From: a virus
Length of the DNA: 38,898 nucleotides
IMG/VR virus record: IMGVR_UViG_3300044858_002126
Location: 1 to 38,898 of that record
Strand: one strand, 5' to 3'
In this document: in pieces, positions 1 to 38,898 of the stretch
How positions within the stretch are numbered: the stretch's first letter is position 1
Layout: the number at the start of each line of letters is the position of its first letter
The notes under the pieces: model-generated
What the model saw: only the letters and a program-made list of their open reading frames with translations
Databases searched by the model: none
Told to the model about the DNA's origin: nothing
Position numbers and translations under genes: made by a program

Positions 1-126
1 CCAAATCTCTCCGTCGGCAGGGGCGAGAAACTCCCCGTGTCGAAGGGCGCGGGGCTGACGGCCAAGGGCCGCGCCCGCTACAACCGCGCCACGGGCAGCA
101 AGTTGCAGGCCCCGACCAAGGACAAG
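1..126. repeat. Left copy of terminal direct repeat
   Basis: Bases 1-126 are identical to 38753-38878. In the next 20 bases the two copies differ at five positions (127, 130, 132, 135 and 143 of the left copy). This is the overlap expected of a circular or terminally redundant genome, but with sequence variation at its edge. Confidence 0.9.
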
Positions 127-216
127 GACAACCCGCGCCACAAGTCCTTCTGCGCCCGCAGCCGTTCGTGGAAGGGCGAGCGAGGCAAGGCGGCACGGGC
201 AAGGTGGGGGTGCTGA
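1..216 (+). CDS. DUF6321-like small basic protein (3' part; 5' part at right end of window)
   Basis: The frame is open from base 1 and stops at TGA 214-216, ending in RARWGC. Its start is not here: the same codons occur at the right edge, where ATG 38735 precedes the CCA codon that equals base 1. Joined, the protein is about 77 residues, begins MARKRGPNLSVGRGEK and is rich in Lys, Arg and Gly. The GAGLTAKGRARYNRATGS segment, followed by a Cys-containing basic part (SFCARS), resembles phage proteins annotated DUF6321. The molecular function is unknown; the basic character suggests nucleic-acid binding or a virion-associated role (inference). It heads a run of five tiny genes with overlapping or 1-base junctions that leads into the portal gene. 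Confidence 0.75.
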   Translation, partial: PNLSVGRGEKLPVSKGAGLTAKGRARYNRATGSKLQAPTKDKDNPRHKSFCARSRSWKGERGKAARARWGC

Positions 217-16685: not shown

Positions 16686-19600
16686 ATGTCATCATTCCAG
16701 ACCGCGCTTGACGAAATCAGGAAGGCAGCGGAGTCCGCTGGTGCATTCGGAGGCACCAACGACATCGCATCCGCATTGTCAGATATCTCTGCCTCGATGG
16801 CATCAATCGAGCCGGGCGCCGCGCCGGGCATGGCTGCCGGGGAACAGGACCTCATGGGCATCGCCGCCCGCGAGTACGAGGACCAGTTGGTGGTCCCGAA
16901 GGTCCTGCCGATGCTCCCGGAGGCGGTTCGGTTCCCGTCGATTCAGGCCGAGCCGCAGGAGGTTGAGCGCGGCCTGCGGACGATGATGACGCAGGCGGCG
17001 CAGGCAATCGCGACGCCGGGCATGCGTGCCAAGTTCCTCGAATCCGTGCTGGACCCGCTGCTCGCGGTCACGGTCGGCACGGCTGCGCGGCCAGCCGCCC
17101 CGATGATGGCACAGGCCATTTCGCAGGCGCTTGAGCCGTCCGGGAGCGGCCTGACGGTCCAAGACCTGCGGACGGAGCAGATCGCCGCACGGGGCGCGCA
17201 GGCTGGAATGGCGGCCGGGCAGCAGGAGGGCGTCATGGGCGACATCGCCCGCGGCGTCGGGCAGAGCCTCCCGCAGTTCGCTGGCATGGCTGGCGCGGTC
17301 GTGACGGGCAACATCCCCGTGGCCGCGGCCATCGCCGCGCAGGCCGCGATCCCGCTGTCGTCCTATACGGCGGGGCAACTCGCCTACATGGACGAACTCG
17401 ACGCCAAGCGGGCGCGTGAGGCGCTCGAAGGGCGCGAACTGTCGGACTTCGACATGAACGCCATGCAGCGCCGCGCCACGGCAGCGGCCGTGGTCGAGAC
17501 GGGCGTGGAGGTGATCGGTGCTGCGACCGGAGCGAGGTTCGTCGGCAAGGCCGCGAAGGCCATCACGGCGACCCGTCCGGGCCGGGCGGTCGTCTCGACG
17601 CTCTCGAACGCTGGTCAGCCAGCCGTGAGCAGGATCCTCGCGTCGAAGGCCGGGCAGGCCGGGGCGCAGGCGTTCGCACGGGCCACGAACGGGACCGGGA
17701 GGATCGCCAGCGGGTTCATGGGCAACGCATCGCGGATCGTGCTTGCGTCGTCCGCGGAGGAGGGCGTGGAGGAACTGTCGTCCGCGGTCCTCCAGTCCCC
17801 GTTCACCGAGGCACCGCTGTCGAAGGACCTGACGGATGGGCTGTACTCGGCGTTCATCGGCGCGGCGGCTGGTGGCGTCGGCGGCGTCGGCGGCGTGACC
17901 GCGGCTGTCGGGCGCAAGGCGTACCTCAACAGGCAGGATGCGTTCCGCCCGGAGAGCGACGCCGAGGTCGTCATGCGGAACAGGCACGACGATGCCATGA
18001 AGGCCCGCACGAACTGGACGGAGGAACTCGACGAGACGCAGGCGGCGGAGGTGTCCGTCATCCTGAACAGCCTGAACGGGATGTCCCCGCAGGAGCGCGG
18101 GATCGCGCTTCGTGAACTGTCCGACGAGCGTGCCGACATCGAGAAGAAGGTGGACATCCTGCTGTCCTACAGGCAGGAACTCAACGCTGCGCTCGTCGGC
18201 GCACGCCAGTCGCAGGCGACCTACGAGACTGGCGCTTCCGAGCGTGCGGCAAAGGAAACGCTCGTTTCCGAGACGCAGGCCGCGCTCGACAAGGCGAACG
18301 CCGACTATCAGGCCGCACGCGACGCGCTCGCGGAGATGGAACTCGCGGCCGATACGGCTCGCCCGGCGCGTGTTGCCCGTCCCGGAAGGAAGGTCGTCAC
18401 GGTCGAGGATCGCCAGCAAGCGGTGACCGATGCGCAGAAGATGGCCACGGACGCGAAAGCCGCGCTCGACGCCGCGACCAAGGACGCGCTCGCAGCAGAG
18501 GGACTTGAGATCGCTCCGGGTCTGCGGATCGACCCTTCGAGTACGGTCGAGTCGCTCAATCAGGAGATCGGGCAGGTTGACGCGGAACTGCGTCTTGCCG
18601 TCACGGACAGCATGCTCGCAGGCGCGAAGTACGCCGCTGCCCGCGAGAAGATCGCGGACATGCCGATGGAGTTCAGGCAGCAGGAGCCCGTGCAGGTCCT
18701 CGACGCGGTCGGCAAGGCGTCAGGTGTGCAGATCGCGGAGGCAAAGGCCCCGAAGCGCGGAGGCCGCATCACGAAGGAACTTGAGGCGCTCGGCATCCGT
18801 GCCGTGTGGTTCCGCGCCCCGAATGGCAAGTTCGGCAGTCCCGCGTTCCACAGCATGGAGTCACGGGGCGTCGTTTACCTGAACGCGGACGCTGACATGT
18901 CGCAGGTCCGCGCCAAGGCGCTGCATGAGGTGTTCCACGACATCCAGATGTTCCGCCCGGAGATCGCGAAGGCGTATGCCGACCGCGTCGGCGTCGCTCC
19001 CGTGTATGCGGCCGGGGCGCAGTATGCGCGTGGCCGTGCGGAGTCCGCGCAGAAGGCGCGCCTCGACGCGCTTGCCCGCATACAGGACGCCGCGCTCCGC
19101 GCCGGGGTCGAGTTGCCGCAGGCAGCGGGACGCGCTGGCGCTGCACGCCTTGAGCAGGAGGGTCAGGCGGAGGTGTTCGGCGCGACCGCCGCCCGCGTGA
19201 CCGGGCGCGGGATCATCAACCCATTCGTGCAGTTCGCTGCCCGGCGCGGGCTCATGGGCCGCGATGTTGCCGCCGCTATGGCGGTCATCGACACGATGGC
19301 TCGCGCCGCCGCGGTCGAGCGCGTTCAGGGCGTGAAGCCAGTCGCGACGCTGTCCCCGCTCGCGAGGACGCTGCTCTGGTCGGAGGACATGGCGCTCGAT
19401 ATCGCATCGGAGATCGAGCAGGCTTCCGGCATGCCGCTCGCCGCGGAGCGTCCCGCCCCGGCAAAGCCAGCGCCCGGCGTGTCGATGGCCCGCGCCTCCG
19501 ACGCCGACTACCTCGCGGCGGTCGAGCGCAACGACATGGCGACGGCGCAGCGCATGGTGGACGAGGCGGCGATGGAGGCTGGATACACAGTTCGCGCGAA

Positions 19601-22600
19601 GCACGGTTCGCAAATTGCTGGTCTCACCAAATTTGATTTGACCCAGCGGCGGTTTGACCGATCCGAACGTGGCGTTGCGTGGTTTAGCGATAACGACAAC
19701 ACCGTCGGCAGATACGCACATACTGGCAATTACATTAATGTTCAACGGTTTATTGACACACTACAGGAAGACATGAAATCACCGCCACAAGGCGGCGTGT
19801 ATTTGCAAGACGAAAACGGCAAACAAGTTGGGCCATTTTATTCGTACAGCGTGGCGTCAGATAGATTGGGCGTGTTTTACATTCCCAATGATTCAGAGTT
19901 TGAACCGGGCTATTACGCATACACGCTTGGTACTGGAGATCCTGATGTTCACATCGGAATGACTCCAGACGAAGCCGTTTCCGGGTTGCGAAATTTTGTT
20001 GCCAATCAAACAAGCATGAGGCCGCCAGTAACAATGGCGGATGTCATTTACGACTCGTATTTGAAGTTGGAAAATCCGCTTGTTGTTGACATGGAAGGCA
20101 AGCAGAAGACCGAGCCGTGGAGCGAGTTGGTCGAACGCGCAAAGGCAGAGGGTCGAGATGGCATCATTGTCAAAAATGTCATTGACATTCCCGGTTCGCT
20201 GTTTGGATCCATGCCAGAGAACATCGAAGACTTCGCGGGAACTGTTTATGGAGTCTTCAGCCCAGAGCAAATCAAGTCCGCCGACCCCGTCACCCGCGAC
20301 GAGCAGGGCAACGTCGTCCCGCTGTCCAAGCGGTTCGACGTTACTACGCCGCTCATCTCGTTCTCCCGCGAAGGCGATGCCGAAGCGGCCAGCCTGCGCG
20401 AACAGATCGCCGTCCTTCAGCGCCAGATCCGCGACGTGCAGAACGTCACCGCGGCGCAGCGCACCAATGCCATCCGCGAGGTTCGTATCCTCGAACGCCG
20501 CCTGCTGACCGCGGAGCGCGTTGCGGAGCAGAAGACGTTGCAGGCGACCCGCGCCAAGATGCGCGTGGAACTGGAGCGCGAGGCGGCGAAGGAGGACATG
20601 GCCACTGCCGACGCGCAGATCGCCAAGTTGCAGACCCGGCTCGATGCGGCGAAGGCATCCGTGCAGTCGCTCAAGCAGGAAGTGTCGTCGCTTCGTCGCG
20701 GCGAGAATCTTGAGCAGCGACTTGCGGATGCGGAGGAGACGGCGCAGCGTGCCATCGACTTCGCGTATGCCATCGGTCGGCGCGAGGGCTTGGTGGCCGG
20801 GCAGGTCGAGGGCCAGAGGCAGGAGCGCCGCGTCGTTCGCAAACTGTCCGAGCGGCTCGCCACCGTCGAGGAGCGGCTGGACAAGGCCGTGCCTGCCCTG
20901 CGCGAGGCGAGGACGCAGATCAAGCAGGACGCGGCCGCTGCGCAGCGTGCGATCGACTTCGCATACGGGATGGGGCTGGCGAAGGGCCGCGTTCAGGGCG
21001 TGATGGAAGGCCGTCGGCAGGTCCTCAAGAAGATGGCGCAGCGCGAGGACACGCTCCAGCGACAGTTGTTCGAGTTGCGAGAGATATCGCGGATGCGCGC
21101 CGACCAGAAGGAGCAGGTCGCGGACGCCATCAGGCGCATCGCCACCGATGCCGTGCGGATGCTGCCCGAGCGCCTGCGCGGCCCGCTTGCCGTGCGCGTC
21201 GCCAACGCCAAGACGCTGGCGCAGGCGAACAGGGTGGCTGTCGAGGCCGTGAAGGTCGCCGCGAACAACGAGATCGCGCAGTCCATCGAGGCGATCAGGA
21301 AGTTGCGCAAGACGCTGAACAAGCGCGGCATGACGTACTCGGCCCGGACAGGCATCGGGTCGCTGCTCGATCAGGCAGAGGATGGGCTGCGTACCGCGAC
21401 CGGGCGACGCCTTCGCGCCGCCGTGCAGGTGCAGCGCGGCGCTGCTCCTGCGCTCGTCAATGCGGTCGAGGTGTATGCGGCGGTCGTGAACGCTTCCGCG
21501 CTCGTCGAGCAGGCCGTCCTGCGGTATCAGGTGGACAGGCAGCAGTACCTCGCGCAGCGTGCCGCCCGCATCGCCCGCTACGACGCGCTTCGTCAGGGAC
21601 TTGTCCAGAACATGGCCGGGCGACCGACGCTTGCGGAGTCGGAGCGCGCAGACAGGGCCGCGACGATCCCGTTCTACCGCCGCGTCAGCCGTGCGAACAG
21701 CGACATCTACACGATGATGCTCGAACTGGAGGGAACGGACGCCGGGGTAATCAACGACCTGCTCTCGGCAGCGCAGGCAGGGAAGGGCGAGTCGTCGCTT
21801 GAGCATGCGTCCATCCTTCGGCAGGTCGTCCCGGTTCTTCAGGCGGCCGGGTACGAGGACATCAACGACTACGCGCTGAAGAACGGCCTGCTCGGAGACG
21901 CATCCGCGAACCTCCGCACGGTGCAGATGGGCGGTCAGGACGTGACGCTCCCGGTCGGGACGATCCTGTCGATCGCCGCGATGGACGACGAGACGCTAGC
22001 GCTGTTCCCGGACAAGCCGGGCGTCGTCGGTCAGGGGGTCACGTTCGCCGGGGCCACGACCACGAAGGTCTTCTACCCGTCGCGTCAGGACATCGAGGCA
22101 ATCCGGTCGAGTCTTTCCGCGGAGGAGCGGGGGATCGTGACCGCCATGAAGGGCGTCCTCGAAACGCAGATCCGCGACCGCGTGATGGATGCGGTGTTCG
22201 CGGTCGAGGGCGACCAGCCCCCGGTGGTGCAGAACTACTGGCCACGCGTGCGGCAGTCGAGGCAGAAGTCTGACGCGAGCATCCTGAACGCGAGCGCCGG
22301 GAACCTCGTCCGCGGCGCGCTCACGAACGTCGGGTTCGCGCAGGCGCGCACTGGCGGGTCGGAGCCGCTCATCTACCGCGACGCCTTCCAGACTTGGGAG
22401 CGCCACGTTCAGGTTGCGCTCGACATGATCCACATGGCGCAGCCGTACCGCGACGCGGCCACGGTCCTGACCGATCCGGCGGTCGTCTCCGGGATCGACA
22501 GGCAGTTCGGTGAGGGGACGGCGGAGCGAGTCCTCGCCGTGTTCTCGAACGGCGTCGGTGCCACCGCCCGCAGCAACCCGACGATCATCGACAAGTTGAC

Positions 22601-23843
22601 GAACAACGTGACCGGAGCGGTCCTCGCGCTGCGTCCGCGGACGCTCGCGAAGGTCCTGATCGGCGGCCAGTTGCGCCTCGCGAGCGAGATCCCGCTCGGG
22701 TACTGGTCGAAGGGAGTCGCCCGTGCCGCGTCGCGCCTGCGCAGTCCGGCGGCGTGGGACGCCCGCGTCGAGGAGATCCACTCCGTCAACGGGTACTTCA
22801 GCAGACGCCACCAGTTGCACATGCGCTCGATCATCAGCGGGTCGCTGTCGGACTCCGACCGCGTGACGCTCTCGACGGCATGGCAGTCGATGATCGACTC
22901 CTTCCGTGCGGCAGGGCAGAACCTCGCCGCGGCGCAGTTGACTGATGCGGCCGGGCGTTTCAAGGACGCGAGCAACGGCGCGAACATGATGATCGCCTCG
23001 GTGGTGGACATGCTCCGTTACATGGACGAGCAGATCATGCTCGCCGCGGTCGAGGCCCGTCTCGCGGAGATCGAGGACGAGGGGGTGCTGACCGGGCAGG
23101 ACGCGCTGCGCGAGGCCGCGCTCCGCGCCGAGCGCGACTTCCGCAGGACGCAGAACGCGAGCGACGAGTTTGACGACAGCCTGTTGTCCGCGCACAATCG
23201 CGTCAAGGGCGCGTCCGGGTGGCGCATCTTCTTCCCGTTCAGCAGCGACCCGGTCAAGGCACGCAACCAGATCCGGCGGGCCTACCTGTCGGGCGAGAGG
23301 CGGCTGGAGACGGGGCTTGCCATCGGCTCGAACATGGCGGCCAGCACGATCATCGGTGCCGCGTCGACAGCAACCGTCGGGTACATGGTGTCTGTCCTCG
23401 CCGGGCTTCTCGGCGGAGACGGCCCGAGCGACGAGGAGGAGAAGAAGGCGATGGAGGAGGCCAAGCGCCTGCCCGTCGCGGTCGCGAACGAGGCCATGTC
23501 GTCCTCGCTCGGCTACCTCGGAATCGTCCTCGGATGGGTGACGAGCGCGTTCCAGTACCGCCGTGCGCCGTTCACGCCCATTGCCGTTCGTCCGCTGGAG
23601 CAGGTCGTGCGCGAGACGACCGGGCCGAAGCCGATTCCCGAGCGCGTGGTGGCCGCGATGCTCGCCGCCTCGCAGTTCGCCGGGTTCCCGATGTACGGGC
23701 TGTACCAGTTCGTGCGCGACTTCTTCCCGAAGCCGCATTCCGAGCGCGAGTCGCAGACTCCTGCCGAGCGCCTGCGCGAGCGCATGACGCCAGAGGCGGT
23801 ACGCGAGCGCATCAGGCGGCGCATGGAGCAGTTGCGGCCCTAG
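16686..23843 (+). CDS. Giant internal virion protein with HExxH and ADP-ribosyltransferase-like domains
   Basis: 2385 residues, the largest gene. Visible parts in order: helical, hydrophobic N-terminal third; HEVFH at residues 747-751 (HExxH zinc-protease motif) in KALHEVFHD; an ADP-ribosyltransferase-like segment, residues about 960-1215, opening with KHG (His973) and closing with FSPEQIKSA and PVTRDEQGNVVPLS, as in the ART domains of phage polyvalent proteins; long coiled coils about 1240-1500 with a duplicated AQRAIDFAY unit near residues 1353 and 1419; and C-terminal hydrophobic segments about 2212-2245. Polyvalent proteins of this kind are packaged and delivered with the DNA, where they can protect it or modify host proteins. 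The DNA of the ART part is lower in GC than its surroundings. The stop TAG overlaps the stop of the converging gene. Confidence 0.8.
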   Translation: MSSFQTALDEIRKAAESAGAFGGTNDIASALSDISASMASIEPGAAPGMAAGEQDLMGIAAREYEDQLVVPKVLPMLPEAVRFPSIQAEPQEVERGLRTMMTQAAQAIATPGMRAKFLESVLDPLLAVTVGTAARPAAPMMAQAISQALEPSGSGLTVQDLRTEQIAARGAQAGMAAGQQEGVMGDIARGVGQSLPQFAGMAGAVVTGNIPVAAAIAAQAAIPLSSYTAGQLAYMDELDAKRAREALEGRELSDFDMNAMQRRATAAAVVETGVEVIGAATGARFVGKAAKAITATRPGRAVVSTLSNAGQPAVSRILASKAGQAGAQAFARATNGTGRIASGFMGNASRIVLASSAEEGVEELSSAVLQSPFTEAPLSKDLTDGLYSAFIGAAAGGVGGVGGVTAAVGRKAYLNRQDAFRPESDAEVVMRNRHDDAMKARTNWTEELDETQAAEVSVILNSLNGMSPQERGIALRELSDERADIEKKVDILLSYRQELNAALVGARQSQATYETGASERAAKETLVSETQAALDKANADYQAARDALAEMELAADTARPARVARPGRKVVTVEDRQQAVTDAQKMATDAKAALDAATKDALAAEGLEIAPGLRIDPSSTVESLNQEIGQVDAELRLAVTDSMLAGAKYAAAREKIADMPMEFRQQEPVQVLDAVGKASGVQIAEAKAPKRGGRITKELEALGIRAVWFRAPNGKFGSPAFHSMESRGVVYLNADADMSQVRAKALHEVFHDIQMFRPEIAKAYADRVGVAPVYAAGAQYARGRAESAQKARLDALARIQDAALRAGVELPQAAGRAGAARLEQEGQAEVFGATAARVTGRGIINPFVQFAARRGLMGRDVAAAMAVIDTMARAAAVERVQGVKPVATLSPLARTLLWSEDMALDIASEIEQASGMPLAAERPAPAKPAPGVSMARASDADYLAAVERNDMATAQRMVDEAAMEAGYTVRAKHGSQIAGLTKFDLTQRRFDRSERGVAWFSDNDNTVGRYAHTGNYINVQRFIDTLQEDMKSPPQGGVYLQDENGKQVGPFYSYSVASDRLGVFYIPNDSEFEPGYYAYTLGTGDPDVHIGMTPDEAVSGLRNFVANQTSMRPPVTMADVIYDSYLKLENPLVVDMEGKQKTEPWSELVERAKAEGRDGIIVKNVIDIPGSLFGSMPENIEDFAGTVYGVFSPEQIKSADPVTRDEQGNVVPLSKRFDVTTPLISFSREGDAEAASLREQIAVLQRQIRDVQNVTAAQRTNAIREVRILERRLLTAERVAEQKTLQATRAKMRVELEREAAKEDMATADAQIAKLQTRLDAAKASVQSLKQEVSSLRRGENLEQRLADAEETAQRAIDFAYAIGRREGLVAGQVEGQRQERRVVRKLSERLATVEERLDKAVPALREARTQIKQDAAAAQRAIDFAYGMGLAKGRVQGVMEGRRQVLKKMAQREDTLQRQLFELREISRMRADQKEQVADAIRRIATDAVRMLPERLRGPLAVRVANAKTLAQANRVAVEAVKVAANNEIAQSIEAIRKLRKTLNKRGMTYSARTGIGSLLDQAEDGLRTATGRRLRAAVQVQRGAAPALVNAVEVYAAVVNASALVEQAVLRYQVDRQQYLAQRAARIARYDALRQGLVQNMAGRPTLAESERADRAATIPFYRRVSRANSDIYTMMLELEGTDAGVINDLLSAAQAGKGESSLEHASILRQVVPVLQAAGYEDINDYALKNGLLGDASANLRTVQMGGQDVTLPVGTILSIAAMDDETLALFPDKPGVVGQGVTFAGATTTKVFYPSRQDIEAIRSSLSAEERGIVTAMKGVLETQIRDRVMDAVFAVEGDQPPVVQNYWPRVRQSRQKSDASILNASAGNLVRGALTNVGFAQARTGGSEPLIYRDAFQTWERHVQVALDMIHMAQPYRDAATVLTDPAVVSGIDRQFGEGTAERVLAVFSNGVGATARSNPTIIDKLTNNVTGAVLALRPRTLAKVLIGGQLRLASEIPLGYWSKGVARAASRLRSPAAWDARVEEIHSVNGYFSRRHQLHMRSIISGSLSDSDRVTLSTAWQSMIDSFRAAGQNLAAAQLTDAAGRFKDASNGANMMIASVVDMLRYMDEQIMLAAVEARLAEIEDEGVLTGQDALREAALRAERDFRRTQNASDEFDDSLLSAHNRVKGASGWRIFFPFSSDPVKARNQIRRAYLSGERRLETGLAIGSNMAASTIIGAASTATVGYMVSVLAGLLGGDGPSDEEEKKAMEEAKRLPVAVANEAMSSSLGYLGIVLGWVTSAFQYRRAPFTPIAVRPLEQVVRETTGPKPIPERVVAAMLAASQFAGFPMYGLYQFVRDFFPKPHSERESQTPAERLRERMTPEAVRERIRRRMEQLRP
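19590..20275 (+). other. Lower-GC insert encoding the ART-like domain
   Basis: Within the giant gene this block is close to half GC by eye, against roughly two thirds on both sides, and codon choice changes with it (more AAA, TTT, AAT and TTG). The change is abrupt at both ends, after GGATACACAG and before GTCCGCCGACCCCGTC. It coincides with the ADP-ribosyltransferase-like segment, which suggests the domain was acquired separately. Confidence 0.65.
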
Positions 23844-24676
23844 GCGGCAGCCCGCTTCTTCCACACGGCGACGTGGTTTCGGATCGACTTGTCCGCGAGT
23901 TCCGCCGATAGGGAGTTCTTCGGGCGGACGCCCGTGGTCGCCCATTTCGCGAACCAGCCTTCCCATATCCGCAGCGCCTCGCGGCCCGTAAGTCCCTTGT
24001 TGCAGAGGACCCGCATCACGTCGGTCAGTTCCTCGACGATCGCCTTGTGCGCCATGTCCCGTGCGTCGGCCATGACCTGCTCGGCGCTGACCGCCTTGCG
24101 GGTTCCGTCGAGTTCACGGGCGAACAGGTCGCCGCTCCTCGCCCGTTCGAGCCGGGTCGCGATGGTCGGGTTGGACCGTGCGATCCTGTCGAGTTGGTCG
24201 GTCGGAGGCTTCCAGTCGAACTCCTCCACCACCTCCCCCCGCTTGCGGGGGGTAGGGGGGTTGTTTGTGGTTGTGGTTGTGGTTGTAGTGGGCATGCTTG
24301 ACGCATGCTCGTCGCATTCGTCCGGCATGCTCGGAGCATCGCGCTTGCCCTTCCATCTGCTCTTGGCGGCGACGGTCGCACGCTCGGAAGCCCTTGCCCT
24401 GCGGTCGGTTGCGCTGTTTCGCTCCTGTTCGAGGCGCGGATGGGACAGCATCCCGTCCTTTTCGAGGACGAAACGGGCGCGAAGAACGGCCCAGTCCTCG
24501 CTGGTGATGTCGCACCGGGTCATGCGTGCGCATGTCTCTCGGTTGTCAGGAATGCCGCCGTTCGTCCACGCATACATGAGCAGTTGGGTGTACGCCCACC
24601 CCTGCACCGCGGTCAGGGTGGCGGTGCTGACGAGAAAGTCGGTCGGATACATCGAGAACCACGGAAGATTCGGCAT
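23840..24676 (-). CDS. DUF1376-family replication protein
   Basis: ATG at 24676 with GGAGG seven bases upstream gives MPNLPWFSMYPTDFLVSTAT, about 278 residues. The PWF..YPTDFL start, the LMYAWTNGGIP and ITSEDWAVL segments and a DGMLSHPRLEQER helix match DUF1376 (YdaU-like) proteins, many of which lie where replication initiators or helicase loaders do. A Thr-rich, Pro-rich linker follows about residue 132, then a C-terminal helical domain (EALRIWEGWFAKWATTG). The gene is alone on the minus strand, has its own promoter and a structured leader, and carries repeat DNA inside it (24232-24346), as lambda O carries ori. A replication role is inferred from family and context. Confidence 0.75.
   Translation of the reverse strand: MPNLPWFSMYPTDFLVSTATLTAVQGWAYTQLLMYAWTNGGIPDNRETCARMTRCDITSEDWAVLRARFVLEKDGMLSHPRLEQERNSATDRRARASERATVAAKSRWKGKRDAPSMPDECDEHASSMPTTTTTTTTNNPPTPRKRGEVVEEFDWKPPTDQLDRIARSNPTIATRLERARSGDLFARELDGTRKAVSAEQVMADARDMAHKAIVEELTDVMRVLCNKGLTGREALRIWEGWFAKWATTGVRPKNSLSAELADKSIRNHVAVWKKRAAA
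24232..24291 (-). repeat. C-rich hairpin and ACAACC tract, copy 1 of a dispersed element
   Basis: Read on the minus strand: GCCCACTACAACCACAACCA, more ACAACC units, CCCCCCTACCCCCC, then a perfect CCCCCCGC/GCGGGGGG hairpin. A homologous order of the same blocks lies in the terminase gene at 36601-36690. Both copies follow AAGCATGC-type repeats. Confidence 0.8.
24292..24346. repeat. Five 11-bp iteron-like repeats
   Basis: GCATG or GCAT(T/C) recurs exactly every 11 bases: GCATGCTTGAC (24292), GCATGCTCGTC (24303), GCATTCGTCCG (24314), GCATGCTCGGA (24325) and GCATCGCGCTT (24336, degenerate). One-helical-turn spacing inside a replication gene is typical of initiator-binding iterons. Confidence 0.6.
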
Positions 24677-24696
24677 GGAGCCTCCAATAAACCGGG

Positions 24697-24770
24697 GTGG
24701 CGCGGGGAGCAGGTGCAAGCGTACCCGCGCCACGCCCGGCATCAGGATGTCGAGAGGGTTGCACCTGCTC
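24697..24770 (-). promoter_or_regulatory. Crossing inverted repeats (possible pseudoknot) in the DUF1376 leader
   Basis: Two perfect stems interleave. Stem A pairs GTGGCGCGGG (24697-24706) with CCCGCGCCAC (24724-24733). Stem B pairs GAGCAGGTGCAA (24707-24718) with TTGCACCTGCTC (24759-24770). The order A-B-A'-B' is that of an H-type pseudoknot, or of two mutually exclusive folds. It ends 20 bases upstream of the DUF1376 start, next to its GGAGG. A DNA operator is an alternative. Confidence 0.6.
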
Positions 24771-27036: not shown

Positions 27037-27840
27037 ATGAAGCGCACCGATACCGTCGGAGAACTGGCTGCGGCGCTCGCCAAGGCCAATCTGGAAATCC
27101 GCAACGCGGAACTCGACCGCATCAACCCGCATTTCAAGAACCGCTACGCCACGCTCGGCAGCATCCTGAACGCCGTGCGCGTCCCCCTCGCCAAGCACGG
27201 GATCGCAACGGTGCAGACCGTGAGCATGCAGGAGGGGATGGTGACGGTCACGACCTCGCTGATCCACTCGTCGGGCCAGTGCATCGAGGACACGGCCATG
27301 TTCCCGCTGCCCGACAAGGCGACCGTGCAGCAGATGGGCAGCGCCATCACCTACCTGCGCCGCTACGCGCTGGCCGCGATCTGCGGCATCGTGGGCGACG
27401 AGGACGATGACGGAGAGAACGACCGGACGCAGCGCACCGAGCCGCGCCGGGAGACGTTCAAGCCGCAGGAGGCACGCGGTTCCGCGCCAGTGGCCGAGCG
27501 CCCCGCGCCCAAGCAGGTCGCTCCGGCCCCGAGGCAGGAGTCCGTCGCTGCTGCCGAAGGTGAGTGGATCGAGGTCGTGCCGAAGTTCATCGACGAGGGC
27601 GTCGCCGGGAAGAACCAGTCCCCGTACGTCAAGATCAAGGACTCGAACGGTGACTCGTTCTTCGTGTGGGACACCGCGCTGTTCGGCGTCGTGAAGGCAT
27701 CGAAGGGTGCGCCCCTGTGGGTCATCACCGAGGCGTCCAAGAAGGAGGGCGCGCCGCCCCGCATCGTGCAGGTGCGGACATCGCCACCGGCGGAGCCGGG
27801 TTCGATCCCCTCGCTCGATGACGACGGGATTCCGTTTTGA
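27037..27840 (+). CDS. erf: ERF-family single-strand annealing protein with SSB-like C-terminal tail
   Basis: 267 residues from ATG 27037, preceded by ACTGGAGACTGAACCA. Residues 1-130 have the ERF pattern: LAKANLEIRNAELDRINPHF with the KNRYATLGSILNAVR block and the conserved QQMGSAITYLRRYALAAICG helix. ERF proteins bind single-stranded DNA and anneal complementary strands. After an Arg/Pro/Ala-rich linker (about 135-175), a second domain (GEWIEVVPKFIDEG and following) looks beta-rich, and the protein ends SLDDDGIPF, which closely resembles the acidic tip of bacterial SSB (DDDIPF). Such a tip recruits SSB-interacting host proteins. Whether the C-terminal domain is an OB fold is not decided by eye. 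Confidence 0.85.
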   Translation: MKRTDTVGELAAALAKANLEIRNAELDRINPHFKNRYATLGSILNAVRVPLAKHGIATVQTVSMQEGMVTVTTSLIHSSGQCIEDTAMFPLPDKATVQQMGSAITYLRRYALAAICGIVGDEDDDGENDRTQRTEPRRETFKPQEARGSAPVAERPAPKQVAPAPRQESVAAAEGEWIEVVPKFIDEGVAGKNQSPYVKIKDSNGDSFFVWDTALFGVVKASKGAPLWVITEASKKEGAPPRIVQVRTSPPAEPGSIPSLDDDGIPF

Positions 27841-32420: not shown

Positions 32421-32756
32421 TTAGGCGTTGTCGTGACGGGGGCAGTCGGAGTCTCCGCACTGGGATTCTCCGGGTTCGCAGTCGCGCCCGCAGTGCGGGC
32501 AGTCGCAGTCTTCAATCTCTTCCGCCGAAATGATCTCGTAATCCCCGAGCATTGGATTGTCAAAGACACCATCGGCGACCTCGCCCCATTCGATGGCGGC
32601 AAGTGACGGCGGAACACTTCCGCCCTGTGACGACATTTCTAGTTGGTGTTGCAGTTGTCCACTTGCATCGTCGGAATCCACGGCTTCGATCAGTGCCTCG
32701 GCCTGAAGTCGGACGGTTCGGATTACGATGACGCGGTGTAGTTTGTTGTGTGGCAT
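32421..32756 (-). CDS. Unknown protein with C-terminal Cys cluster, 111 aa
   Basis: Starts at 32756 with MPHNKLHRVIVIRTVRLQAE. The last ~30 residues contain CDCPHCGRDCEPGESQCGDS followed by DCPRH, suited to bind one or two zinc ions. The first half is a strand-helix region (VIVIRTVRLQAEALIEAVDS). It is the first gene after promoter 32802-32830. Protein or nucleic-acid binding is possible; no family is recognised. Confidence 0.6.
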   Translation of the reverse strand: MPHNKLHRVIVIRTVRLQAEALIEAVDSDDASGQLQHQLEMSSQGGSVPPSLAAIEWGEVADGVFDNPMLGDYEIISAEEIEDCDCPHCGRDCEPGESQCGDSDCPRHDNA

Positions 32757-32801
32757 GGCAGTGTCTCCAGTTGCGCCGGGGTTCCGGCTATGTGTGTGTG
32801 T

Positions 32802-32830
32802 AGCGTATCAACCAATCGGTGCGGTGTCAA
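32802..32830 (-). promoter_or_regulatory. Leftward sigma-70 promoter 2
   Basis: On the minus strand TTGACA (32830-32825), 17 bp, TACGCT (32807-32802), followed by ACACACACAC, a GCCGG-AACC-CCGGC hairpin and GCGCAACTGGAG before the ATG at 32756. It overlaps the 3' end of the upstream gene. Confidence 0.75.
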
Positions 32831-33110
32831 GCGATGCGCTTCCGAATACGGCGAGGTGGCGGTCGCGCTTCGCGTTCTCGTACCCGGTGATGACGGCGTG
32901 GATCAGGTCGTACAGGGCGGGCTTGCTGACGTACCCGGAGGTGACGGACTCGCATCCGCCCGATGGGTGTACGCGCTGAAGTTTCCAACCGCCGTATGCG
33001 CCTTGCAAGCAGTACGCGCCGGGTGTGTTCGGTTCGTGCGGCATCTCGGCGGTGTCATTGAGGCGGCGGACAGCGGCGTAAAGGTCGGACTCGGTGATTC
33101 GTCGGGGCAT
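32808..33110 (-). CDS. Unknown protein of a common phage family, 100 aa
   Basis: Start at 33110 after the shared leader: MPRRITESDLYAAVRRLNDT. A helix is followed by a strand region with LQGAYGGWKLQRVHPSGGCE and then YVSKPALYDLIHAVITGYEN. A similar layout (ITESDL...RLN, AYGG..L..V...GG, S...L...I.A...G) is found in many small hypothetical proteins of phages. No function is known. The -35/-10 of the next promoter lie within its 3' end. Confidence 0.65.
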   Translation of the reverse strand: MPRRITESDLYAAVRRLNDTAEMPHEPNTPGAYCLQGAYGGWKLQRVHPSGGCESVTSGYVSKPALYDLIHAVITGYENAKRDRHLAVFGSASLDTAPIG

Positions 33111-33394: not shown

Positions 33395-33682
33395 TCAGCG
33401 AGACAGTTCGGACAGTGCCAGTTCCTCGACGCGCCGATCCTCGTCGCGCCGCTGCATGGAGTTGGCGATGCGCTCCAGTGCAAGCGCAACGCGGGCGGGG
33501 TCGGGTTCAACGAACGGAACGCGGGTAGCCGCATCCTCGTACTCCATGTCGTCGTTGTGTTCCTCTTCCATGCGGTCGCAGATGTCGCTCACGGTCACGA
33601 TGAGGACGGCCATCGGCTCGTCGGGCGGCAGCATTCGGTCGAGGTCGGCGGTCAGTTCGGCACGGGTGCAGAATCGAATCAT
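33395..33682 (-). CDS. Unknown protein, 95 aa, MIRFC start
   Basis: Start at 33682: MIRFCTRAELTADLDRMLPP. Acidic and helical in the middle (SDICDRMEEEHNDDMEYEDA) and at the end (ALALERIANSMQRRDEDRRV). The first five residues MIRFC and their codons are identical to those of the gene starting at 35410, along with the leader, although the rest differs. Function unknown. Confidence 0.55.
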   Translation of the reverse strand: MIRFCTRAELTADLDRMLPPDEPMAVLIVTVSDICDRMEEEHNDDMEYEDAATRVPFVEPDPARVALALERIANSMQRRDEDRRVEELALSELSR

Positions 33683-33708
33683 GGCAGTCTCCAGTTTGGG
33701 GGTGCGGG

Positions 33709-34087: not shown

Positions 34088-34282
34088 TTAGATCACGTTG
34101 TCCTGAACGCGGACGTTGTAGTCGCCCGCATCCATGCAATACTCCTGCATGAAGCACAGCGCATCGTCGTGCGAGTTGGTGCGGTACACCACGCGATCCT
34201 CGCCGTAGGTACTGCGGACGATTACCCAATAGGCGGCGCGGTTGTTGCGGGTACGGGGCTTGTCGCTGATGTAGTGCGGCAT
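34088..34282 (-). CDS. Unknown protein, 64 aa
   Basis: Start at 34282, the first gene after promoter 34332-34360: MPHYISDKPRTRNNRAAYWV. A strand-turn-strand N-terminal part (AAYWVIVRSTYGEDRVVYR) leads into an acidic, aromatic C-terminal end (DAGDYNVRVQDNVI). No family recognised. Confidence 0.55.
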   Translation of the reverse strand: MPHYISDKPRTRNNRAAYWVIVRSTYGEDRVVYRTNSHDDALCFMQEYCMDAGDYNVRVQDNVI

Positions 34283-34331
34283 GGCAGGTTCTCCAGTTGT
34301 TGCGCCGGGTTGTCCGGCTAGGTGTGCGTGT

Positions 34332-34360
34332 AGTGTATCGACAATTCGGGAAGGTGTCAA
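34332..34360 (-). promoter_or_regulatory. Leftward sigma-70 promoter 1
   Basis: TTGACA (34360-34355), 17 bp, TACACT (34337-34332) on the minus strand. Downstream come a run of CA steps, a GCCGG-ACAAC-CCGGC hairpin and GCGCAACAACTGGAG before ATG 34282. It closely resembles promoter 2. Confidence 0.8.
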
Positions 34361-34396
34361 GAGCAAATCCCGGAATATTTCCAAGAAAGTTGTAAG

Positions 34397-34642
34397 TCAC
34401 TGTTCTGTAAAGGTTTGCGGCAGTTCCGCCATCGCATCGGAAAGCGTCCGATAACGCGGTCCCATCCCTTCGTCGATCACCGCGTCCCGCATGGCATCGG
34501 GGTACGGGTGGCCGATGGCGGTGGCGAGGATGCGCGCCATCCCGTCCTCCGCTGCGGTCAGTTCGGCACGGGCGCGCATGATCCGGCGGTAGGTGCGGGC
34601 GTAGCGCGCTTCCAGTTGCGGCATGGTCGGTCGGCTTGGCAT
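34397..34642 (-). CDS. Unknown helical protein, 81 aa
   Basis: Start at 34642: MPSRPTMPQLEARYARTYRR. Basic helical N-terminal half (IMRARAELTAAEDGMARILA) and a mixed C-terminal half. The leader is the CTACCGGAGACTGCC variant, after a GGCAC-G-GTGCC palindrome. No family recognised. The end of this gene is followed by promoter 1. Confidence 0.55.
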   Translation of the reverse strand: MPSRPTMPQLEARYARTYRRIMRARAELTAAEDGMARILATAIGHPYPDAMRDAVIDEGMGPRYRTLSDAMAELPQTFTEQ

Positions 34643-34669
34643 GGCAGTCTCCGGTAGGTGGCGATGGGT

Positions 34670-34680
34670 GGCACGGTGCC
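34670..34680. promoter_or_regulatory. GGCACGGTGCC palindrome, copy 1
   Basis: GGCAC-G-GTGCC in the leader of the gene at 34642. An extended copy (GCGGCACGGTGCCGC) lies at 35434-35448, also in a leader. It may be an operator or RNA hairpin. Confidence 0.45.
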
Positions 34681-34733
34681 GCCCGTTCGCCCCCCGATGC
34701 AAGCGCACCGGGAGGACGACGGGGGGTACCGCG

Positions 34734-35140: not shown

Positions 35141-35410
35141 TTAGCGGGTGCGGGTGGACGGGGTGGCGGTGACGCGCTCGACCCGTGCGCCAGTTAGACC
35201 GGACGCAACGCGGGCGGCGGCGCGGTGGGACTTGAACCGGAACGCATGGGCGCGGGGGCCGTGTTCCGGGCCGGACTTGCGCGGGCAGGTGCCGTCGCGG
35301 TAGACGGTGCCGTCCGAATAGCGCAGGGCGTACCCGGGCGGGGCGACAACCGAATCCCCGGCGGGGAGGGTGACGATGTAGGCGGACGGTGGCGGGCAGA
35401 ATCGAATCAT
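35141..35410 (-). CDS. Unknown protein, 89 aa, MIRFC start
   Basis: Start at 35410: MIRFCPPPSAYIVTLPAGDS. A strand-rich, Gly/Pro-rich N-terminal half with GYALRYSDGTVYRDGT, then a basic helix (RAHAFRFKSHRAAARVASG) that could bind nucleic acid. It is the first gene of the leftward array. The leader CTACCGGAGACTGCC plus the first codons duplicate those at 33682. No family recognised. Confidence 0.55.
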   Translation of the reverse strand: MIRFCPPPSAYIVTLPAGDSVVAPPGYALRYSDGTVYRDGTCPRKSGPEHGPRAHAFRFKSHRAAARVASGLTGARVERVTATPSTRTR

Positions 35411-35551
35411 GGCAGTCTCCGGTAGGGGGTGAAGCGGCACGGTGCCGCAGATTGATGATACCCTACACTTCGGCGCAAGGGAAGGGGTTGCAAGAGACTA
35501 AATCGACGGATTTCCGCAAATTGCGCGTTTCCAGTTGGGAAAGTGTGCGGA
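35411..35551. promoter_or_regulatory. Divergent intergenic region between the array and the small terminase gene
   Basis: Contains the GCGGCACGGTGCCGC palindrome (35434-35448) and a CGCAA-A-TTGCG dyad (35515-35525). A leftward -10 TATCAT (35460-35455) has only a poor -35 (TTCCCT, 17 bp away). No convincing sigma-70 promoter is seen for the rightward late operon, which may depend on a phage activator or on readthrough. Confidence 0.4.
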
Positions 35552-36058
35552 GTGAGTGATGCGCCAACGGAGTACGGGACCAAATTGGGGGACTTGCAGC
35601 GGCGTTTCCTGCAAGAATGGGTGCGCATCGGATTCGTTGCAGCGTGCGATGCGGTGGGCATTTGCAGGGAAACGCCCGCCAAGTGGACGGAAGCCGATCC
35701 CGCGTTCGCATCGGAGCGTGAGCGGGTCGAGCAGGCCATCGCGGACGGGCATGAGGCGACGCTTGACCGCATCGCCGCCGGGATAGAACCGGGGAGCGCG
35801 GTGCAGTTGAAGGCGATTGAACTTCGGCTACGCGCCTTGCGGCCGCACCGCTACCGCGATTCGGCGCAGCGGGTGGAGTTGACCGGGGCTAACGGGGGCG
35901 CGGTGCGGGTCGAGGACGGGAACGCCTCCCGTGCGTTGGAGTTCCTTGCTCGCTACGCGGCTACAAGGCGCGTAGACGCGTCCGCCGCTTCCGGTGCGCT
36001 TCCACCCCCACCCGACGACGCGGACGCTTCTGTGGGAATCGTAGAGGCTCCGGCGTGA
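35552..36058 (+). CDS. Small terminase subunit (TerS-like)
   Basis: GTG 35552 with GGGA eleven bases upstream gives MSDAPTEYGTKLGDLQRRFL, 168 residues; GTG 35543 is an alternative start. The N-terminal region (LQRRFLQEWVRIGFVAACDA then VGICRETPAKW) is a helix-turn-helix with the sequence style of TerS DNA-binding domains. A central helical part (ASERERVEQAIADGHEATLD, LKAIELRLRALRPHRYRDS) should form the oligomerisation core, and the C terminus is acidic and Pro-rich. TerS recognises the packaging site and regulates the large subunit, encoded directly downstream with a GTGA overlap. Confidence 0.8.
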   Translation: MSDAPTEYGTKLGDLQRRFLQEWVRIGFVAACDAVGICRETPAKWTEADPAFASERERVEQAIADGHEATLDRIAAGIEPGSAVQLKAIELRLRALRPHRYRDSAQRVELTGANGGAVRVEDGNASRALEFLARYAATRRVDASAASGALPPPPDDADASVGIVEAPA

Positions 36059-38451
36059 GGCGGAACCTACCCGGCATGGATGAGGCATGGCGGCAGGTCC
36101 GCGCCGCCGCGCTCAAGGCGGGCGGCGAGACATGGCGGGCGTGGATCGACGCGCACCCCGGCGGGGTGCCGACACTCGCGGAGATAGGCGCGTCGGTCAT
36201 GCGCAAGCGCGAGGCGATGGACGCGAGGCGGGCAGCGCACAAGGCGCGCAAGGCAGCAGCCAAGCCGCCCCGCCCCGGTGGGGGGGTGGCAGGGGGACGC
36301 CGGGGTAGGGGGGGTGGGGTTCCGCAGTCCGGATCCCCCGGCCCTGCCGCGGCGTCGGAGTCCCACTCCGCTCTGCCTAACCCCTCCGCTCTGCCTAGCC
36401 CCTCCGATGCAGACGCATCGCAAGCACGGCCCTTCCTGCCGCCCGCCAAGCGCCCTCCTCCGAGTGGACCCGATAACCCGATTCTTGCGACTGGATTGAA
36501 GTATGTGCCTAAATCCAAGTCTGACAAGCCCTTGAAGAAAAAGCGTATGCTTGGAGCATGCGACAAGCATGCGTCAAGCAATGCGTCAAGCAATCAGCAA
36601 GCAATGCTTGTTGAATGCCCTCTACAACCACAACCACAACTACCCCCCCTACCCCCCCGAAGCGGGGGTGGGGGAGGGGAGGGGTTTGGAAATGGATCCC
36701 CCGGCACTTCCCTTGGTACGGATCCCCTTGGGGTCCCATCGTGGCCGACGGAGTTGGGTGCGCTGATGGAGTTGCGGGAGTTCATCCTGACGGCTGCGAG
36801 CGTTCAGGAGCGTTCGGACTTGGAGGCGTTGTTCCGGGAGGATCCTGCTGCGTGGCTGGCGTTGACGGCGTGGACCTACCGGGTGAAGGAGACTGGTCCT
36901 GACGGCAGGGAGCGTCCTGCGGCCGTCCGTGACGTTCCGTTCGTTCCGTGGCCCGTGCAGGTGTCCTCGATCCGCCGGATCGCTGCCTGCGTGCGTGACG
37001 GGCGTGACGTGGTGATCCGCAAGAGCCGTGACATGGGTGCGTCGTGGCTGGTGGTGGGGCTGGCTGCGTGGGGGTGGTTGTTTCACGGGTGGCAGAGTTT
37101 GCTCGTCAGCCGCGTGGAGGACAATGTCGACCGGACGGGTGACCCTGACTCGTTGTTCTGGAAGGTCGATTACATCCTTGCGAGCCAGCCGTCGTGGCTG
37201 TTGCCCTGTCCGGTGGACCAGATGCGCAAGGGCGGTTCCTTCCGGCAGCACATGGTCCTTCGGCATCCGACCAGCGGTGCCACGATCGCGGGACAGGCGA
37301 GCGGTGCGCATATCGGGCGCGGCGGTCGTCGGACGTTCGTGCTGTTCGACGAGTTCGCGGCGCTGGAGGACGACGAGGCTGCGTGGCGGTCGGCTTCGGA
37401 CACCACATCCTGCCGCATCGCGCTGTCGACCCCGATCGGTTACGGGACGCGGTACGACAAGTTGGTGCAGGAGGCGCGTGGCACGGGGAACCCCGAACTG
37501 GTCGAGATGCTGTACTGGCACCACCCCGAGAAGGCCAAGGGCGCGGAGACGAAGGTGGACTTCGACGGCACCGTAACGGGCGTCACCGGGGGAACTTACG
37601 TCTGGACGCCTTGGCTCGGGGACCAGTTGCGCAAGCGCGACAAGGTCGACTTGGCGCAGAACGTGTTCGCGGAGGCGATGGGTGCGGGTGCCGCGTTCTT
37701 CCCGAGCGTGGCGGTGACGGCCCACAGGCGGGAGTTCGGCAGGGAGCCGCGTCGGGCGAACTGGGTGAGCGGTCGGTGGGTGGACAGCCCGACCGGGCGG
37801 TGGCGTCTGTGGGGCGACCCGGAGGTGTCCTCGTACTCGGTGGGGATCGACCCCGCCTACGGGACGGGAAACCACGCCAGCGCGGTGGCGGTGCTGGACG
37901 CCTCGACCCGCAGGATGGTCGCCATGATGGTCGATGCCAACATCACGCCCGCGGACCTTGCCGCGGAGGTGGCTGACGTGTGCCGCGGCTGCTTCCGCGA
38001 GGCGGTGGTGGCGTGGGAGGTGAACGGCCCCGGCCAGAGCCTCCAGCGCGACTTCGAGGCGCAGCGGTTCCACCGCGTCTGGAAGCCCCGCAGGGAGGGG
38101 AAGTCGACCCACGGGATCGTCGACAGGATCGGGTGGGTGTCGAGCGAGCAGTCCAAGCGCCTCCTCCTCGGGAACCTCTCGCGTGCGGTGCAGCAGGGGG
38201 AGGTCGTCGTCCCCTGCACGGGAACCCTCGACGAGATGCTCGCCTACGTCCTCGACGGCAACGGCCGCGTCATCCCCGGCCGCCTGCGCGATGAGTCCAC
38301 GGGCGCGAGGGAGAACCACGGCGACCGCGTCATCGCCCTCGCCTTGGCATGGCTCGCCGCCGACGACGCACCCGTTCCCGGTCAGGAGGACGAGGTGTAC
38401 GCTGATGGCTCGGCTGGTGATCTCCTCAAGCACTGGGAGGTATTCCGATGA
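36055..38451 (+). CDS. Large terminase subunit with long N-terminal extension
   Basis: 798 residues from GTG 36055. The ATPase-nuclease core is clear: Walker-A-like RKSRDMGASW (322-331), Walker B VLFDEF (Asp432, Glu433), the ALSTPIG coupling segment, then nuclease acidic residues Asp599 (GIDPAYG), Glu655 (AWEVNGPG) and Asp757 (NHGDRV). It drives DNA translocation into the procapsid and cuts the concatemer. The first ~237 residues are unusual: a helical basic start, a Gly/Arg- and Pro/Ser-rich disordered part, then HASSNASSNQQ and LQPQPQLPPLPP encoded by the repeat element. ATG 36766 (MELREFIL) would give a normal-sized terminase, so the extension may be a separate protein or a fusion. Confidence 0.88.
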   Translation: MRRNLPGMDEAWRQVRAAALKAGGETWRAWIDAHPGGVPTLAEIGASVMRKREAMDARRAAHKARKAAAKPPRPGGGVAGGRRGRGGGVPQSGSPGPAAASESHSALPNPSALPSPSDADASQARPFLPPAKRPPPSGPDNPILATGLKYVPKSKSDKPLKKKRMLGACDKHASSNASSNQQAMLVECPLQPQPQLPPLPPRSGGGGGEGFGNGSPGTSLGTDPLGVPSWPTELGALMELREFILTAASVQERSDLEALFREDPAAWLALTAWTYRVKETGPDGRERPAAVRDVPFVPWPVQVSSIRRIAACVRDGRDVVIRKSRDMGASWLVVGLAAWGWLFHGWQSLLVSRVEDNVDRTGDPDSLFWKVDYILASQPSWLLPCPVDQMRKGGSFRQHMVLRHPTSGATIAGQASGAHIGRGGRRTFVLFDEFAALEDDEAAWRSASDTTSCRIALSTPIGYGTRYDKLVQEARGTGNPELVEMLYWHHPEKAKGAETKVDFDGTVTGVTGGTYVWTPWLGDQLRKRDKVDLAQNVFAEAMGAGAAFFPSVAVTAHRREFGREPRRANWVSGRWVDSPTGRWRLWGDPEVSSYSVGIDPAYGTGNHASAVAVLDASTRRMVAMMVDANITPADLAAEVADVCRGCFREAVVAWEVNGPGQSLQRDFEAQRFHRVWKPRREGKSTHGIVDRIGWVSSEQSKRLLLGNLSRAVQQGEVVVPCTGTLDEMLAYVLDGNGRVIPGRLRDESTGARENHGDRVIALALAWLAADDAPVPGQEDEVYADGSAGDLLKHWEVFR
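36278..36319 (+). repeat. G-run tract (possible G-quadruplex)
   Basis: At least five runs of four or more G separated by 1-5 bases, including GGGGTAGGGGGGGTGGGG, inside the terminase extension. A four-tetrad quadruplex could form on the plus strand. Confidence 0.6.
36545..36690 (+). repeat. Iteron/ACAACC/C-rich element, copy 2, in the terminase gene
   Basis: GCATGC-type units at 36556 and 36567, GCAATGC at 36578, then GCAATC and GCAATGC units at shorter spacing; followed by CTACAACCACAACCACAACT, CCCCCCCTACCCCCCC and a G-rich arm AGCGGGGGTGGGGGAGGGG. Order and sequence match the minus strand of 24232-24302. Confidence 0.8.
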
Positions 38452-38735: not shown

Positions 38736-38898
38736 TGGCGAGGAAGCGCGGACCAAATCTCTCCGTCGGCAGGGGCGAGAAACTCCCCGTGTCGAAGGGC
38801 GCGGGGCTGACGGCCAAGGGCCGCGCCCGCTACAACCGCGCCACGGGCAGCAAGTTGCAGGCCCCGACCAAGGACAAGAACGATCCCCGCCACAGGTC
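38735..38898 (+). CDS. DUF6321-like small basic protein (5' part; continues at base 1)
   Basis: ATG 38735 overlaps the preceding TGA and opens MARKRGPNLSVGRGEK. The frame is cut by the end of the window. From 38753 on it repeats the left end, so the full gene is read by joining to 1-216. The last codons differ from the left copy (AAG AAC GAT CCC CGC against AAG GAC AAC CCG CGC), giving Asn-Asp in place of Asp-Asn. See the left-end entry for the protein. Confidence 0.75.
   Translation, partial: MARKRGPNLSVGRGEKLPVSKGAGLTAKGRARYNRATGSKLQAPTKDKNDPRHR
38753..38898. repeat. Right copy of terminal direct repeat
   Basis: 146 bases that repeat 1-146; 126 are identical and the last 20 contain five substitutions. 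Shows that the genome was assembled as a circle or has terminal redundancy. Confidence 0.9.

Follow-up and report, generated by a model that had tools for sequence, protein, structure and literature searches.

In the Bacillus phage SPP1, the replication origin oriL lies within gene 38 and a second origin, oriR, is located 12-13 kb away. Both are bound by gp38, which at oriR is thought to block replication forks and to trigger concatemer synthesis (PMC6316719, PMC3485210). The lambda-type origin lies inside gene O (PMC7466680). Here we analysed a window of 38,898 bases, comprising positions 1 to 38,898 of the virus record IMGVR_UViG_3300044858_002126 (G000). In this window, one DNA module occurs both in a DUF1376 gene and in the gene of the terminase large subunit. 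We propose that the copy in the DUF1376 gene is a replication origin with DUF1376 as its initiator, and that its counterpart in the terminase gene serves as a second origin, an initiator-binding site or a roadblock; we consider this reading probable.

Results

The ends of the window (1-146 and 38753-38898) overlap with 96.6% identity, which suggests that the genome is circular or permuted, with a length of about 38.75 kb. About 18% of this genome is taken up by a single gene (16686-23843, plus strand) encoding a protein of 2385 residues, whose counterpart in the related genome G011 comprises 3812 residues. In a region of small minus-strand reading frames, repeated stretches of 80-92% identity were found at 32744-32831 and 34270-34361 as well as at 33668-33704, 34640-34682 and 35396-35448, possibly representing shared leaders or promoters.

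One copy of the module is located at 24235-24340 on the minus strand, within the DUF1376 gene, and the other lies 12.4 kb away in opposite orientation, at 36546-36684 on the plus strand, within the gene of the terminase large subunit. Along the coding direction, both genes display the same order of blocks: GCATGC-type direct repeats, an ACAACC tract, two C runs with TA between them and a G-rich arm. The initial annotation had described such a shared element, and every block was recovered where it had been placed. CTACAACCACAACCACAAC and CCCCCCTACCCCCC are exact in both genes, preceded by the GCATGC-type repeats and followed by the G-rich arm. Within the 38.9 kb searched, ACAACCACAACC and CCCCCCTACCCCCC are each confined to these two copies. 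When the module was compared with its own genome by BLAST, the other copy was found at E = 9e-14 (79% identity over 78 columns, spanning tract and runs), and the repeat arrays alone gave a separate 23-bp match (96%, E = 4e-5) that is not of low complexity. Counting repeats within the genome is weak by itself, as the 18 units found genome-wide (versus about 4 expected) include several scattered ones. The features of both genes are:

23840-24742, minus strand: DUF1376 gene, proposed replication initiator (PF07120, E 1.6e-9; phrog_3992, E 1.6e-16)
24292-24340, minus strand: direct-repeat (iteron-like) array of a type also present in the DUF1376 gene of the relative G001; units GAGCATGC (24325-24332 and 24303-24310) and AAGCATGC (24292-24299), plus degenerate copies
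24261-24289, minus strand: A/C-rich tract ACTACAACCACAACCACAACCACAAACAA, candidate unwinding element, read in the Thr-run frame
24235-24260, minus strand: two C runs CCCCCCTACCCCCC and G arm, hairpin CCCCCCGC-AA-GCGGGGGG (from the fold of L090, identical in sequence)
36055-38451, plus strand: terminase large-subunit gene with a poorly conserved N-terminal part of about 230 residues (phrog_2, E 2.9e-17, and relatives)
36331-36338, plus strand: GGATCCCC block ahead of the terminase copy, distinct from the module and a candidate packaging signal
36546-36618, plus strand: second direct-repeat array, mostly with 11-12 bp spacing; units at 36554, 36565, 36576, 36588 and 36599, partial units at 36546 and 36613
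36624-36641, plus strand: second ACAACC tract, read as Gln-Pro here and as Asn-His in G001
36643-36684, plus strand: C7-TA-C7 and G-rich arm, which can pair with both C runs (fold of L093, -15.6 kcal/mol with DNA parameters)
36694-36701, plus strand: second GGATCCCC block, immediately following the terminase copy
36720, plus strand: third GGATCCCC block

The terminase copy comprises about six repeats, more than the DUF1376 copy with its three full and otherwise degenerate units. Iteron plasmids use handcuffing or copy control, and the larger array would suit a terminase copy that only titrates or regulates the initiator in such a way and starts no replication itself. For this purpose the repeats alone would suffice, yet the tract and the C and G runs are kept as well, and we regard mere titration as very unlikely.

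As the initial annotation had read it, the tract is translated as a Thr run in DUF1376 and as Gln-Pro in the terminase. Among 32 distinct modules, the DUF1376 genes use the Thr frame in 25 cases and Gln-Pro in 4, and the terminase genes contribute two Gln-Pro versions and one Asn-His version. With all three frames in use, a function at the DNA level, previously suggested as an alternative to one at the RNA level, is strongly supported. In the DUF1376 gene of L099 (reverse strand), an identical 12-bp repeat even encodes MATP in the first of two clusters and NGNP in the other; about 120 bases separate the clusters, of which the first lies close to where the DUF1376 domain ends. The transcribed tract is C-rich, G-poor and followed by a hairpin, as might be expected of a rho site, an attenuator or a translational control element. 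But no U run follows this hairpin, and the repeat array is a constant companion of the tract that varies as whole units by lineage, like protein-binding sites, which renders an RNA-level element highly improbable.

We scanned 2.9 million viral contigs with sequence patterns; the collections are incomplete and many of the relatives are fragments. The pattern applied to IMG/VR, the tract followed by the double C run, returned 59 stretches, each of which belongs to a DUF1376 gene or to a terminase gene from the clade of the window, with the exception of L234, a low-complexity protein matched by chance in the wide scan. The L103 gene was confirmed as PF07120, and L252 represents the end of a DUF1376-like gene that is truncated by the contig boundary. 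The same layout was also found when the search started from the DUF1376 protein itself, that is, without selection on the tract. Since the wide pattern scans select for C runs, the constancy of these runs is based on the unselected set of DUF1376 proteins. The repeats in front of the tract vary by DUF1376 lineage (GCATGC, AATGGCNACCCC, GGGTGGCTCAAGCAACCC, GGTGACCGT or GCGATCCCAAGT), and the tract and C runs are constant, as would be expected if a diverging DNA-binding domain reads the repeats and a common machinery the rest.

The tracts are simple, and with L234 one chance match did occur, which raises the question of convergence of low-complexity sequence. The initial annotation had named independent origin of the two tracts as the finding that would speak against a shared element. 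Instead, repeats, tract and C runs keep their specific order, the repeat match of 96% over 23 bp is not simple, the relative G001 carries both copies in the same places, and the link to one gene family is nearly exclusive among the 2.9 million contigs. Against this family-wide pattern, we consider the probability of chance convergence negligible. A mobile repeat is disfavoured too, as the scans revealed no copies dispersed over other genes. In bacterial genomes, the strict pattern gave two matches, neither of them an evident module. A broad scan for AGCATGC plus ACAACNACAAC gave at least 112 matches, and among the matches listed only known modules kept the full layout. The hairpin is common among the modules and absent in one DUF1376 group; it is not essential there, so we rejected it as a conserved core.

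The relative G001 (IMGVR_UViG_3300044986_000457) encodes a terminase and a DUF1376 protein that are 78% and 58% identical to those of the window, respectively. Both of its genes carry the module, 13.6 kb apart by the short way round, and its terminase copy sits at the same linker position in the Asn-His frame. The terminase copy is known from one clade only, consisting of the window, near-identical fragments and G001, and a second copy of the module was found in none of six cultured DUF1376 phages. This limitation to one clade, together with the fast-evolving, tolerant linker, would fit a functionless fossil, a piece of a DUF1376 gene that recombined passively into the terminase gene. Flanking G-rich blocks could have guided such a recombination, and a G-rich block of the terminase gene itself (self-match to 36296-36348) is similar to the G-rich arm of the terminase copy as well. 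However, the G001 copy retains its position despite 78% identical terminases and a change of frame, with repeats, tract and C runs intact, and DNA that is kept while the frame changes is unexpected for a decaying insert. We judge a fossil unlikely.

A TerS-like gene (phrog_4044) ends about 490 bp before the terminase copy, which itself lies within the terminase gene, and the pac site of SPP1 is likewise found within a terminase gene. The copy may hence serve packaging as a pac or cos site to which the terminase small subunit binds, its likeness to the DUF1376 linker being secondary. Against this, terminase relatives with 77-84% identity over the conserved part and a covered linker (e.g. L041, L042, L047 and L049) are without the module, and phages with unrelated terminases carry it in DUF1376. 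In two further terminase relatives, G011 (42.6 kb) and G012 (39.3 kb), no DUF1376 homologue was detected, and the terminase gene is devoid of the module; a 123-base end repeat suggests that G011 is a complete genome. Because close terminase relatives without DUF1376 are also without the module, it belongs, as judged from these sequence comparisons, to the putative initiator DUF1376 and not to packaging or the terminase. In addition, GGATCCCCC recurs in the terminase linkers of close relatives and brackets the module in the window (36331 and 36694) and in G001, and would be the better packaging-signal candidate. A terminase copy that is itself the packaging signal is accordingly quite unlikely. 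The GGATCCCC blocks in the terminase linkers of close relatives keep the same codons.

DUF1376 is listed in Pfam as a family of unknown function, and several DUF1376 families are annotated as 'primosomal protein' in PHROGs. Among cultured phages, the gene directly precedes a DnaB-type helicase gene in Acinetobacter phage RM_A2, Vibrio phage 1.003 and Plectonema phage yong2, lies downstream of CII in Xanthomonas phage Rb1 and is found beside a DnaA-like gene in a Rhizobium phage. In the DUF1376 neighbourhood of the window, no DnaB or loader was identified, and the recognised neighbours are nuclease and Erf genes. Most DUF1376 linkers of cultured phages contain direct repeats followed by A/C-rich tracts. 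Their repeat content exceeded that of all 200 codon shuffles in 7 of 10 genes, and the DUF1376 gene of G001 was not outstanding in this analysis. The DUF1376 repeats of cyanophage yong2 match the terminase array of the window at 42 of 52 positions without gaps, with about 32% identity between the two DUF1376 proteins over the matched part.

AlphaFold predicted two ordered parts for the window's DUF1376 protein, with a disordered linker between them (residues 132-172, pLDDT below 50). The DUF1376 copy of the module falls in this low-confidence linker and the other copy in the linker-coding part of the terminase gene, in agreement with the earlier placement of both in linkers. Foldseek matched other DUF1376 proteins, Lin1244/Lin1753-like domains and one 'replication protein', along with a weak viral 'replisome organizer' match. 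The fold search against solved structures returned nothing below E 1 for DUF1376, and a profile search of PDB sequences found none with DUF1376. The Erf-like annealing protein of the window (27037-27840, plus strand) ends in DDDGIPF, like the C-terminal tip of bacterial SSB, and NWVPF or SLPF forms the C-terminus of several short DUF1376 proteins from relatives.

The GC skew of the window has its extremes at 11.4 and 38.6 kb, which match neither copy and differ from those of G001. The lowest skew of three cultured phages falls about 1 to 4 kb away from DUF1376, a proximity that is confounded by gene direction.

Discussion

From the functions offered initially (origin, pac site, protein-binding array or mobile repeat), an origin or protein-binding array fits the module best, whereas the pac site and the mobile repeat are disfavoured. 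Its layout would correspond to that of lambda O, with repeats for an initiator to bind, a strand-asymmetric tract that opens readily and C/G runs able to form a hairpin, although the tract lacks the classical A/T-richness, a point against this reading. The primary origin would be embedded in the stretch of its own initiator gene, DUF1376, that encodes the linker, and the initiator probably binds both arrays. Theta replication may start at the DUF1376 copy, and the terminase copy could act as a second or late origin. Alternatively, the terminase copy might be a roadblock that, once bound by the initiator, switches replication to recombination-dependent concatemer synthesis, as proposed for oriL and oriR of SPP1. 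We base the proposal of a DUF1376 initiator and a two-copy origin on the SPP1 precedent, on the spacing of 12.4 and 13.6 kb and on the Erf, RecE-like exonuclease and RusA proteins encoded in the window. Located between two GGATCCCC packaging-signal candidates, the terminase copy may further couple replication to packaging: the bound initiator would stall forks and start concatemers, so that the switch of mode and the first packaging cut occur in one place. We put this extension forward as speculative and rather doubtful.

If the proposed role is true, DUF1376 gains a testable function as an origin-binding initiator, and the origin of many uncultured phages could be read from the linker of their own DUF1376 gene. 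The copy in the terminase gene would then provide another case of the two-origin arrangement known from SPP1, and it would allow a direct test of how a phage moves from theta replication to concatemers. A start signal that appears to be present twice would point to replication beginning at two sites, or to an inherent coupling of genome copying with packaging.

Compared with phage pac sites in terminase genes, the likeness is one of location; the module differs from them in being absent from close terminase relatives and in occurring elsewhere in DUF1376 genes. As in lambda, repeats are followed by an unwinding region (a candidate here) in the middle of the initiator gene (the putative initiator DUF1376 here), and in several cultured phages DUF1376 takes the O position beside the helicase gene. 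However, the window protein matches only PF07120 in Pfam and not the lambda O family, that is, it would work like O without being a member. Moreover, the opening region is A/T-rich in lambda but an A/C-rich tract with C and G runs in the window, and lambda has one such origin. In SPP1, as proposed here, one origin lies in the initiator gene and a similar second one about 12-13 kb off, with direct repeats and an unwinding region (again a candidate in our case), and in both G000 and G001 a second copy of the module is present elsewhere in the genome. SPP1 also uses recombination genes for its concatemers, and Erf, the RecE-like exonuclease and RusA match roles in that pathway. In contrast, the SPP1 origins are A/T-rich, and the second copy of the window is inverted relative to the first and placed inside the coding sequence of the terminase large subunit. 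Both the lambda and the SPP1 comparison concern layout. The kind of system is known, and its initiator family and location look new.
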